In this document: piece by piece, positions 15,696 through 19,849 of the stretch
Numbering within the stretch: position 1 is the stretch's first letter
Layout of the letters: every line of letters begins with the position of its first letter
Source: Chloroflexota bacterium
Lineage (GTDB): Bacteria > Chloroflexota > UBA11872
Length of the DNA: 64,000 bases
Direction: 5' to 3'
Assembly (NCBI GenBank): GCA_026708035.1
Contig: JAPOVQ010000014.1
Location: forward strand, 66,826-130,825
Made by a program: the position numbers and the translations under genes
The notes under the pieces: model-generated
Told to the model about the DNA's origin: nothing
Seen by the model: only the letters and a program-made list of their open reading frames with translations
Database searches by the model: none

Positions 15696-15995
15696 ATGCT
15701 TCCCGAGATCCCGGTTGAACGCATGGTGCTGGCCGTGTTGTCGAACGACGACGCCAACACGGTACAGGCGGCGCTGGTTGAGGACGAGTTCCGCGTCACG
15801 CGCATCAACACCACCGGCGGCTTTCTCAGACGCGGCAACGTGACCCTGCTGGTCGGCGTGGCCGAACGCGAGGTCGACTCGGTCATTGAGCACATTCGAG
15901 CCAATGCTTCCGCCGAGAGCGACAGTGAGGCAGGCGGCCGCGCCGGCTCCACGATGCTTGTTGTCCTTCCGGTCACCGTGTCCGCACGCGTGTAG
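15696..15995 (+). CDS. darA: Cyclic-di-AMP receptor, DarA/PstA type (DUF970)
   Basis: 99 residues. The PII-like fold of the DarA/PstA family is indicated by the order of motifs: MVLAVLSNDDANTVQAAL, then RVTRINTTGGFLRRGNVTLL, where T-T-G-G-F-L is the nucleotide-binding turn, followed by VGVAEREVDSVIEHI and a closing strand MLVVLPV. Known members bind c-di-AMP and have no known enzymatic activity. No diadenylate cyclase gene is in the window. Its presence suggests c-di-AMP signalling in this organism, which fits a Terrabacteria lineage. Confidence 0.9.
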   Translation: MLPEIPVERMVLAVLSNDDANTVQAALVEDEFRVTRINTTGGFLRRGNVTLLVGVAEREVDSVIEHIRANASAESDSEAGGRAGSTMLVVLPVTVSARV

Positions 15996-16080: not shown

Positions 16081-16428
16081 ATGACCCTATCCAGCGCCGG
16101 TGGGCGAGTGCTCGCGCGCGCGGCGCTGCTTGCCCTGGCCGCGCCCCTGCTGACCGTGCTGCTCGCGCAGGCCATCGGCATCGAGGTTCCGCCCGGTCAC
16201 GAGGGGCACCGCCACGTGCACCTCGCGACCGGCGACGCGCCGCTGGGGACTGAAACGGAGGCGTCCTCGGGCGAATTCCCCGAGGGTGCCTTTGGTCTGC
16301 TCGCGGGCGTACTGCCGGCCCTCCTGGCCACGGCCCTGCTGCCCATCACCTTTCGACGGATCACGCACGCGACCCAACGGGTCTCGGAGTGGTCGCCGCA
16401 GGCGGCGCATCCACCTCCTCGGAGCTAG
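16081..16428 (+). CDS. Small two-TM membrane protein with His-rich loop
   Basis: 115 residues with a TM helix around residues 10-32, a loop containing PGHEGHRHVHLATGD, and a second TM helix around 66-90. The loop has four histidines within nine residues, which suggests metal binding. It lies just upstream, on the same strand, of the copper-type genes at 16503 and 17642, so a role in copper handling is plausible. No named family was recognised. Confidence 0.65.
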   Translation: MTLSSAGGRVLARAALLALAAPLLTVLLAQAIGIEVPPGHEGHRHVHLATGDAPLGTETEASSGEFPEGAFGLLAGVLPALLATALLPITFRRITHATQRVSEWSPQAAHPPPRS

Positions 16429-16502: not shown

Positions 16503-17522
16503 ATGCGATGGATATCCGCGCGCGCCACGGCGCGCGCGCTGGTGGCGGCGGCGGTCCTCACCGCCGCCACGGCCTCGGGCACGTTGGCGCACGAAGGCCG
16601 GGAATCGGCCGGCTTCGACGTCGTAGTCGGCTTCCTGAACGAACCCGCCTACGAGGGATACCTCAACGCCGTATTCCTCGAGGTCACCAGAATGGCGAGC
16701 GGGCAGGGGGCTCAAGAGCCGCACAAAATGTCGGGAAGCCAGATGCCCGACGTCATGGCCCACGGGGGCATCTTCGTGTCCACGCCATTCGAGGATGGCG
16801 ACGCCTTCGAATCTGAGATTCCGCACGACCTCGACGGCATGACGATTCCCTACCACAGCCACCTCAATCCCGATATCGCCGGATTGATTGAAGTCACGCG
16901 GGACGTACCCGCGGCAAGCCGCGTCGAAATTGAACTACACGCCGACGGCGCCTCGCCGCACATGCTGCGGGTGCAGCCGGGAACCACCGTCGTGTTTCGG
17001 AACCGCACCGGCGAGCCCCAGCTCATCGCGAGCGGCATGCATACCGACGAGGCCCACGCCGCCGCCGGCCTGGACGGGCCGGTGACCGGACTGGAGGACA
17101 CCCTGCAAGTCGAGGTCACCCACGTCGCCACGGGGCAGTCGACGGTCATGGCCCTCGCGCCGCTGTTCGAACACCCCGGCGCGTACACGGCGGACTTCAT
17201 ACCAACGCAACCCGGCGCCTATCGATTCCGGTTCTTTGGAAGCATCGAGGGCCAGCCGTTCGACGAGGCATTCGAGTCGGGCGCGAACACCTTCGACGCC
17301 GTGCAGTCCCGCGCGGCCGCGCAGTTTCCCGTCACGCTGCCCAGCGTCCGCGAGCTCGAGGGGGTGGTGCGGACCTCGCGGGCATCGGCCGACGAGGCGC
17401 TCGACGCAGCGGCGGGCGCGCGAGTGATCGGCATCGTCGGCATCGCCGTGGGCGCCGTTGGCCTTGTGACCGCCGCCGGCGCGATCGCGCTGGCGATTCG
17501 GAGTCGCCGTCGTGGCGCATAG
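16503..17522 (+). CDS. Secreted membrane-anchored FixH/YtkA-like protein with cupredoxin-like insert
   Basis: 339 residues; ATG at 16503 follows an AGGAGA site. A signal peptide (residues 1-30, ending around T-L-A-H) and a C-terminal TM helix (about 313-335) with a basic tail place the bulk outside the membrane. Residues about 35-60 and 185-275 read as the two halves of one beta-sandwich common beside CopC/CopD genes (GFLNEPAYEGYLNAVFLEVT, then GLEDTLQVEVTH and PGAYRFRFFGSIEG). Between them lies roughly 120 residues rich in His and Met, with IPYHSHLNPDIAG and PHMLRVQPGTTVVFRNRTGE, a strand pattern like cupredoxins. It probably handles copper outside the membrane; no electron-transfer role is shown. 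Confidence 0.75.
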   Translation: MRWISARATARALVAAAVLTAATASGTLAHEGRESAGFDVVVGFLNEPAYEGYLNAVFLEVTRMASGQGAQEPHKMSGSQMPDVMAHGGIFVSTPFEDGDAFESEIPHDLDGMTIPYHSHLNPDIAGLIEVTRDVPAASRVEIELHADGASPHMLRVQPGTTVVFRNRTGEPQLIASGMHTDEAHAAAGLDGPVTGLEDTLQVEVTHVATGQSTVMALAPLFEHPGAYTADFIPTQPGAYRFRFFGSIEGQPFDEAFESGANTFDAVQSRAAAQFPVTLPSVRELEGVVRTSRASADEALDAAAGARVIGIVGIAVGAVGLVTAAGAIALAIRSRRRGA

Positions 17523-17612: not shown

Positions 17613-17641
17613 ACCGGGCGATGCCGGCGCCTCTCCAACGC

Positions 17642-19849
17642 ATGACGCTGGCGCCGGCCCGACGCTGGACGCTGGCGGTCGTGCTTGCGGCTGTGCTCAC
17701 CACCGTCGGGCTCATGCCGGTCGCCGCCCATGCCAATCTCGTGCGAGCGATTCCGGCTGCCGGCTCCACGGTAGACACGCCGCCGCAGGTCGTCGCCGCC
17801 GAGTTCTCCGAGCGGATCGAGCCGGGTTTCAGCCGCATCGATGTCCTGGATGCCTCCGGGGCGTCGGTGACTGACGACCCCAGCCAGGTCGACCCGTCGA
17901 ACCGTTCCGCCATGTTGGTGCGCGTGCCGCCGCTCGCCGATGGCACCTACGTCGTGACCTGGCGCACCTTGTCGGTGGTCGACGGTCACGTTATCCGGGG
18001 CTCCTACGCCTTCAGCGTGGGCGAGCCCATCGACGCCGACGTGGCGAGCACCCCGGCGTCCGCGCTGGTTCTTAGCCCCGCCGAGCCCGTCCTTCGGGCC
18101 GCGCTGCTCGTCGGCGCCATGCTCGTGCTGGCCACCGCGGTGCATGTGCCGCTGATCTTCGCGCCGGCCGCCCGAGCGGTCGGCGTAAGGGCCGCGGGAT
18201 CCCGCTACGTCGAGCTCGGATGGATTGGATTCGGTCTGGCCGCCGGCGCCCACGTGGGACTGCTGGTGACCCAGGCCGCGAGCCTCGCCGGCGATGCCGA
18301 GGCGGACCTGGTCGGCGCCGTCGGCAACGCGCTCGGCTTGGGCCAGTGGGGCACGCTGTGGATCGTCCGGGCCGTCGTGCTCGCCGGGTTGGCCCTGGCC
18401 CTGATGCGAGCCGGCCGCGAATCGCGGCCGCTGCGAGCCTGGTTGCCGGTCGCGGCCCTGGCCGCGGCTGTGCTGGTCACAATCTCATTGGGCAGCCACG
18501 CGGCGGCGCTCCTCGAGTCCACGACGGCGGCCACCAGCGCCGACGTGCTCCATTTGCTCACCGCCGCTCTTTGGGCCGGCGGCCTCGCCCCGCTGCTTCT
18601 GTCGCTCGTGCATGCCCGCCGGACGCTCGACGGCAACCCGCGCCGCCGCCTGCTAGGGGCGCTGCTGGCGCGGTTTTCGACCATCGCCACGATCTCGGTC
18701 GGCGCTCTCGTCATCACCGGCGCGTTTGCCACCTGGATTCAGGTCGTCGAGCTGCCGCGCTTGGCGCAAACCGACTACGGCCGCGCGCTGGTGGCCAAGC
18801 TCGTGCTCGTGGCGCCGCTCATTGGCCTGGGCGGGGTCAACCTGCTCTGGACGCGGCGTCGACTGAACGAATTGCGGCCCACGGCTGCCGGCCGGTGGGC
18901 GCCGCGCCTGGTGGCCGCCGAGGTGCTGCTCGGCGTCGCCGTCGTTGCGGTGGTCGGCCTGCTGACCAGCCTCGAACCCGCGCGCCAGGTCGCGTTGGGC
19001 GATGCACGGGGCGTCAATCTGGAGGCCCGCCTTGACGACCTCGAAGTGGCCCTGAGCATTCAGCCGGGAACCCCGGGCCACAACACCGCCACTCTGACGC
19101 TTCAGGATCGGGGACAGCCCGTGGTCGACGCCGACATCCAGTTGCAGTTCAAGTTTCTCGACTCGGACATCGGGCAGCGCGATCTGCGTCCCGATCCGGA
19201 CGCTGACGGCCGCTACGTCGTGGCGGGCGATTTCATTGGCCTCGTCGGGCGCTGGCAGGCGCTGGTCGTTGTCCGGCGCCCCGGCGAGTTCGATGCGCGC
19301 GCGCCCTTCCGGTTCGACGTCACGCCCGGCGGTGCAGCGGCAGGCGGCGCGCGGCCACCGGCCGCCGACGACGTGCGCCGCGTGTGGGCCATTGCACTCG
19401 CGGGTCTGGGCCTACTGCTCGCCTTCGGCATGCTGCAGCCCATGGCCTGGGCGGACTGGGCGCGACGAGGCGTGACGGTCGCCGGCTTCGGCGCCGGCGC
19501 GGTTGGGCTTGCGCTGCTGGTCACCACCCCCGAGTTCACCCCGAGCTCGTTGAGTGCCGTGAACCCCGTGCCGCCCGACCAGACATCCATCGACGCCGGA
19601 CGCATGCACTTTGAGGCCCACTGCGTCAGTTGCCACGGTCCTGGCGGACAGGGCGACGGACCGCTGGCGGCCGGACTCGATCCGCCGCCGCTGGACTTGA
19701 CCATTCACGTGCCGCTGCACCCCGATGGCGAGCTCTACGCCTTCATCGAAGCGGGCATTGCCGACACGGCTATGCCGGCGTTCGGGGAGACGTTGACCGT
19801 GTTCGACATCTGGAACCTGGTCAACTTTCTCCAGACGCTGCCGCCGTAG
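17642..19849 (+). CDS. CopC-CopD-cytochrome c fusion protein
   Basis: 735 residues from the ATG at 17642; an ATG at 17621 is also possible. Module order: signal peptide (1-29); CopC beta-barrel (about 30-125) whose mature end begins H-A-N-L-V-R and which includes DGHVIRGSYAFSVG, so both copper-ligand His regions are present; an eight-TM CopD region (about 145-455); an extracytoplasmic YtkA-like beta domain (about 460-570); two TM helices; and a C-terminal cytochrome c (about 645-735) with C-V-S-C-H for heme and AMPAFG as axial Met. CopC binds Cu(II) and CopD is linked to copper import. The cytochrome tail suggests coupling of copper redox state to transport or delivery. Confidence 0.92.
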   Translation: MTLAPARRWTLAVVLAAVLTTVGLMPVAAHANLVRAIPAAGSTVDTPPQVVAAEFSERIEPGFSRIDVLDASGASVTDDPSQVDPSNRSAMLVRVPPLADGTYVVTWRTLSVVDGHVIRGSYAFSVGEPIDADVASTPASALVLSPAEPVLRAALLVGAMLVLATAVHVPLIFAPAARAVGVRAAGSRYVELGWIGFGLAAGAHVGLLVTQAASLAGDAEADLVGAVGNALGLGQWGTLWIVRAVVLAGLALALMRAGRESRPLRAWLPVAALAAAVLVTISLGSHAAALLESTTAATSADVLHLLTAALWAGGLAPLLLSLVHARRTLDGNPRRRLLGALLARFSTIATISVGALVITGAFATWIQVVELPRLAQTDYGRALVAKLVLVAPLIGLGGVNLLWTRRRLNELRPTAAGRWAPRLVAAEVLLGVAVVAVVGLLTSLEPARQVALGDARGVNLEARLDDLEVALSIQPGTPGHNTATLTLQDRGQPVVDADIQLQFKFLDSDIGQRDLRPDPDADGRYVVAGDFIGLVGRWQALVVVRRPGEFDARAPFRFDVTPGGAAAGGARPPAADDVRRVWAIALAGLGLLLAFGMLQPMAWADWARRGVTVAGFGAGAVGLALLVTTPEFTPSSLSAVNPVPPDQTSIDAGRMHFEAHCVSCHGPGGQGDGPLAAGLDPPPLDLTIHVPLHPDGELYAFIEAGIADTAMPAFGETLTVFDIWNLVNFLQTLPP

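Follow-up and report, generated by a model that had tools for sequence, protein, structure and literature searches.

The gene and its neighbourhood

The window, which is the whole stretch of 64,000 nucleotides that was analysed, contains at positions 16503..17522 a single open frame encoding a protein of 339 aa; this gene, the features within it and its two neighbours all lie on the + strand. From its N-terminus the protein consists of an apparent signal peptide, a beta domain (referred to here as the host) that carries an inserted, apparently permuted cupredoxin domain, then a stalk and, at the C-terminus, a transmembrane helix. The signal peptide, its predicted cleavage and the transmembrane stretch were assigned by eye: cleavage between TLA and HEGRE, within an A-H-E-x-R motif, would make His30 (16590..16592) the first residue of the mature protein. 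Host profile matches place the first part of the host domain at residues 30-63 (16590..16691) and the second part at residues 192-262 (17076..17288), with the inserted domain at residues ~83-190 (16749..17072), as recognized by hhalign, AF2 and VIA-align. Searches of Pfam and NCBIfam returned no family at cut-off for the protein, and neither the insert nor the host is named there. A full-length AF2 prediction of the protein made without an alignment gave a pLDDT of 39.7, and a scan of viral contigs found no relative of it.

The gene lies directly upstream of one for a CopC-CopD-(weak YtkA-like)-cytochrome c fusion (17621..19849; Pfam), and is preceded by one for a small His-rich protein (16081..16428), judged by eye to be a membrane protein and containing GHEGHxHVHLA. 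Both neighbours had been recognized correctly in the earlier note. The small protein matches no Pfam family over cut-off; tblastn found it in 3/20 fetched stretches from relatives (L203-L205), a similar ORF is present in L042, taken to be from the same genome as L205, and L202 also has a small His-rich ORF. In several relatives it likewise lies upstream of the host gene. CopC and/or CopD are present in 18/20 of these stretches (~8 to 11 kb around the host genes), 17 of them with CopC; L201 has CopD together with YtkA-like and cytochrome c domains. The CopC/CopD matches in L197, L201 and L206 lie a few kb from the host gene, and neither domain was found within the fetched stretch of L198 or L214. 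The distant genome G361 has a similar set of neighbours: a CopC-CopD-YtkA-like-cytochrome c protein, a protein with a YtkA-like match below threshold (E 0.0057) and a small His-rich ORF. In the window, the copper cluster is preceded by a gene for a cyclic-di-AMP receptor family protein (PF06153), at 15696-15995.

The host family and its interrupted loop

A search of relatives with the whole protein gave a match in 30/61 genomes, where congeners align end to end and the others mostly in one or two pieces. With a host-only profile, the host family was found in 106/400 genomes of a phylum sample. It is split in 21 of these 106, by a permuted cupredoxin in 8 and by a different inserted domain in 13 (one of the latter loci, L011, is truncated). 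Among the 85 remaining genomes the best host match is continuous through the insertion site in 83; the matches in the other two, G073 and G113, do not cover the site. The proposal in the earlier note that a separate segment interrupts a beta domain which normally runs without a break is thus borne out, and the homologs lacking the insert that it suggested searching for exist in these 83 genomes. The host loop is an insertion hotspot.

The ORFs fall into three classes: those with the permuted insert, those with a GEGHAHVYVNG-type insert and those with none (L012, L019, L023-L030). We counted the permuted insert in 8 genomes and not 13, since loci L038-L042 probably duplicate genomes already counted (L042, for example, is probably a locus of G016). 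A profile of the insert in its native order matched 7/41 genomes of the class at E 0.001, and in the phylum sample it matched G361 strongly (E 4.4e-19). The GEGHAHVYVNG-type domain, of ~95 aa, occupies the same host loop in L008, L009, L010, L013-L018 and L020-L022, as one copy in L008/L009 (one genus) and in tandem in L010 and others (another genus); the one copy checked has no Pfam match and no significant sequence match in the PDB.

The host is an unnamed family that is widespread and usually found near CopC-CopD genes. Its assignment to the FixH/YtkA type in the earlier note did not hold, as the window protein matches neither in Pfam; the resemblance to YtkA/CtaK-like domains (PF13115) consists of matches below the curated cut-off in 2/8 host sequences (best E 0.033). 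No match to DUF1775 was found in the window protein with an E limit of 10 or in 8 host sequences with a limit of 1, in searches where the HMMER filters drop weak matches. The A-H-E-x-R motif, with the cut between Ala and His, stands at the predicted mature N-terminus in 30/31 loci examined, the remaining one being the truncated L011, and in 9 further host proteins (L207-L215). The host domain is predicted, and likely, to expose a histidine as its mature N-terminus.

Across six congeneric genomes, dN/dS was 0.06 for the N-terminal part of the host, 0.12 for its C-terminal part, 0.13 for the stalk and transmembrane helix, 0.17 for the insert and 0.34 for the linker. The insert is maintained by selection, as its value of 0.17 compares with 0.06-0.13 for the host parts. 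In a host tree of 33 sequences, which included only 7 of the 13 other-insert hosts and left out G293, the cupredoxin-bearing hosts share a group with support 100/100, which also contains the other-insert hosts and three hosts without any insert. A single clade of all 8 cupredoxin-bearing hosts was rejected on this tree (p-AU 0.017), and a clade of genus g1 and G361 was not (p-AU 0.117). Because the branches are long, we tentatively conclude that the cupredoxin-bearing hosts are not a single clade, with gain plus replacement, or transfer, as possible histories. As to the origin of the insert, our guess, which we consider likely, is that a cupredoxin was duplicated in tandem and the outer halves were then lost. 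Another domain does occur in tandem in this host loop in sister genomes, and no unpermuted cupredoxin intermediate was seen in the loop among the loci examined.

The order of the cupredoxin halves

From its N- to its C-terminal side the insert runs IFVSTPFEDGDAF...PYHSHLNPDIAGLIEV and continues with RVEIELHADGASPHMLRVQPGTTVVFRNRTGEPQLIASG, such that the end of a cupredoxin appears to precede its start. Its first half (16755..16904; AHGGIFVSTPFEDGDAF...PYHSHLNPDIAGLIEV) corresponds to the C-terminal half of an ordinary cupredoxin, and its second half (16917..17036; SRVEIELHADGASPHMLRVQPGTTVVFRNRTGEPQLIASG) to the N-terminal half. Profile alignment is the main evidence for this permutation. In hhalign against 45 linear rows, the second half of the insert aligned with columns 2-32 (97.3%) and the first half with columns 33-73 (83.8%); the score was 53.5 in native order against 75.0 after reordering, with 31 and 72 aligned columns, respectively. 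The highest scores in 200 column-shuffle controls were 15.8 for the first half, against a real score of 28.4, and 13.7 for the second, against 53.0; a further control with six segments taken from the host parts of these proteins gave at most 14.0.

These linear rows derive from 52 loci, made up of 12 loci and 40 regions hand-picked from the hit list of the native-order profile, from which other hits were omitted; 51 loci carry the domain, 50 rows remained after 80% reduction, and 45 rows (43 loci) of >60 aa entered hhalign. The set was gathered with the native-order profile, so its rows were chosen mainly by likeness to the second half of the insert. An HMM built from a first linear set, 40 cupredoxins picked out by Pfam in the class, did not separate the two orders clearly: the window insert scored 8.8 against a maximum of 4.7 in 200 shuffles, and the gain on reordering was +0.6 bits for the window insert, +0.7 for G016 and +3.4 for G361, the latter two within the shuffle range.

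When the inserts were compared with the linear set as single sequences, the second half was unmatched by any of 1000 shuffles in 8/8. The first half is weaker, with 0 to 61 of 1000 shuffles scoring as high (10/1000 for the window insert; 61/1000 for G003, where the alignment is confined to columns 34-49). For the window insert alone, reordering adds only 2.7 bits (from 25.4 to 28.1) and the alignment remains in columns 3-32; the best-scoring cut point nevertheless lies between the halves in each single sequence. Against PDB sequences, the native-order insert as a single sequence gave no cupredoxin match, and the first match of the reordered insert was the blue copper protein 5fc9 (12-87 of 90, E 0.069). 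Profiles of seven rows matched 5fc9 at E 0.0043 when reordered (best stretch 13-65) versus 0.67 in native order. In the 400 phylum genomes, the native profile gave weak matches that lay mostly within the second half of the insert, and the reordered profile gave near-full-length ones (e.g. 11-88 of 90, E 2.6e-9). By these alignments the insert is a cupredoxin-type domain with its halves in circularly permuted order: each half fits the cupredoxin sequence profile, as does the whole domain once reordered, and the canonical strand order is absent. The cupredoxin-like strands named in the earlier note are thus of the type proposed, but run in a permuted order.

A template-free AF2 prediction of the insert from six rows (the insert and five relatives) gave a pLDDT of 85 and a pTM of 0.76, with 80/112 residues at 90 or above; two of the five models were poor (pLDDT 63.5 and 56.6), and the input alignment was shallow. 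Foldseek returned no match to this model at E 0.001 or below, and its best rows were a gamma-carboxylase, a designed beta-helix and cupin chains. VIA-align against 972 PDB chains placed 5syd, a circularly permutated azurin, at the top, with rmsd 3.0 over 86 residues and a Z of 6.8, a moderate value since the tool warns that values <8 may reflect a common arrangement; the next rows had a Z of 5.2. Ordinary cupredoxins are absent among the best 50 of the 972 rows, which does not count against a cupredoxin fold. The 5syd match is telling because an artificial permuted connectivity ranks first and because the sequence result agrees with it. Residues 2-88 of the insert model align with residues 35-130 of the 5syd chain. 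The engineered azurin (cpAz), which is reportedly the subject of a paper of its own, is man-made and stands alone, whereas the window insert is natural, lies within another domain and lacks the type-1 ligands. The permuted arrangement was otherwise met in our analysis only in this artificially rearranged azurin, and a search of the open-access PubMed Central literature by title or abstract found no natural permuted cupredoxin.

The type-1 copper positions and the probable role of the protein

At the type-1 positions, the 58 linear rows (16 of them come from loci that the reordered profile detected) have His in 53, Cys in 52, His in 50 and Met in 52, and the His/Cys/His set is intact in 50/58 versus 0/8 permuted inserts. 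In the latter, three of which were aligned by hand since the aligner had trimmed them, the first His position holds Gln in 7/8 (Gln173 in the window, 17019..17021) and Ser in 1/8, the Cys position holds Ser or Asn, the second His position holds Asn/Asp/Glu, and the Met position holds Ile/Leu/Ser in 7/8, with Met only in G361. The insert thus matches the linear cupredoxins of the phylum and 5fc9 in sequence once its halves are exchanged, and differs from them in the order of the halves and from the linear rows in the loss of their His, Cys and His. Two features are conserved in 8/8 permuted inserts, namely H-x-H, which in the window is His118-Ser119-His120 (16854..16862) with Ser119 at the type-1 Cys position, and an Ala-His where the chain enters the insert (His87, 16761..16763). 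The His118 position is also His in 26/58 linear rows, and is thus not special. The earlier note had described a segment of about 120 residues rich in His and Met; an extra segment of ~110 residues (about 83-192) is present, but its content of 8 His and 4 Met is modest. The structure model that the note proposed as a check for a cupredoxin with clustered H, H and M ligands suggests such a fold, with a moderate Z for its best match, but the ligands are missing from the canonical site in the sequence. Three linear cupredoxins from another family of the phylum (L163, L078 and L076) have also lost the type-1 ligands (e.g. AESVTS...YHSTTNPALKG). No PF13473 or PF00127 cupredoxin was found at E 0.001 in any of six genomes of the window's genus.

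Because the type-1 ligand set is missing, the insert is unlikely to be a blue-copper electron carrier. The proposal that an ordinary type-1 cupredoxin was inserted for this function would account for the cupredoxin-type sequence and predicted fold, and for the adjoining cytochrome c and CopC/CopD; the replacement of Cys and both His in every permuted insert, and of Met in all but one, together with the permuted strand order, leaves this reading largely refuted and highly improbable. Even less weight attaches to the view that the whole protein is one known domain family with the segment as a normal component, which the earlier note had named as grounds for abandoning its proposal. The single continuous ORF and the conservation of the insert, which is near that of the rest, agree with such a view, but it is refuted by the uninterrupted host match in the genomes without a split; moreover, 13 further genomes have a different domain at that site, and a good model is obtained from the insert by itself.

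Two further explanations concern how the halves came together and what copper site they may form. The halves could pair between two chains, as in a domain-swapped dimer, or represent two half-domains left from neighbouring cupredoxins. Each half is clearly cupredoxin, the linker between them is short, and relatives carry tandem inserts in this loop; the confident single-chain AF2 model, which matches the permuted azurin entry, nonetheless makes this improbable. The insert might also come from, or resemble, domain 1 of a multicopper oxidase, with His118-x-His120 replacing an HSH/HCH pair and creating a copper site between domains or subunits. HSH/HCH pairs have such a role in laccases, which also have an HWHG motif, and domain 1 of the multicopper oxidases carries two H-x-H pairs. 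The invariant H-x-H and the weak laccase rows (E 0.4 to 1.2) obtained with the reordered profile are compatible with this origin, but the laccase scores are far weaker than that of the small cupredoxin 5fc9, the window protein has one H-x-H and no second, and His118 is common in linear cupredoxins; we regard it as quite unlikely.

Taken together, we favour a reading in which a cupredoxin-type domain was inserted, is circularly permuted and has lost its type-1 site, in a protein with a copper-related role, and give this combination a probability of about 0.75. The protein is predicted to be secreted and anchored C-terminally in the membrane, and it probably handles copper. In this lineage the host loop would have received the cupredoxin-type domain, such that the polypeptide goes in close to mid-sequence of the cupredoxin, continues along its C-terminal half and over a linker between the former ends, and then follows the N-terminal half back into the host. 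It is plausible that copper is carried through the predicted N-terminal His of the host, and perhaps through the conserved histidines of the insert. In the mechanism that we favour, the host domain would hold Cu(II) at this His and exchange it with the adjacent CopC-CopD-YtkA-cytochrome c protein; by analogy, such an exchange is possible, at somewhat less than even odds. What the permuted domain does is the point of least certainty: it may act as a docking module, or provide a second metal site through the conserved His-x-His and Ala-His. A bolder version, which we consider rather unlikely, is that a natural permutation let a cupredoxin be spliced in mid-sequence into another copper-protein domain, where a new copper site of His118-x-His120 and His87 replaces the type-1 site near the host's N-terminal His, and metal passes between the two sites in one chain toward CopC-CopD.

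Cupredoxins are a textbook fold for which 5syd is the laboratory precedent of permutation. The window protein would show how a domain can enter another by way of its middle instead of its ends, and how a blue-copper fold is reused after its copper site was lost; the unnamed host family near CopC-CopD genes is a candidate copper donor. This donor role is suggested by analogy with YcnI and YcnJ of Bacillus subtilis. In that species, YcnI uses its N-terminal His to bind Cu(II), which it exchanges with the CopC domain of YcnJ; YcnJ is a CopC-CopD-YtkA protein, and its YtkA domain supports oxidase assembly (PMC12362106, PMC13344008). The host and the window protein differ from YcnI in having no DUF1775 match, and their copper binding is proposed from the likeness. 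They share with the YcnI/YcnJ system an extracellular beta domain, an N-terminal His and a C-terminal membrane anchor (all three predicted in the window protein), and a gene beside that for a CopC-CopD-YtkA protein (PMC12362106, PMC13344008).
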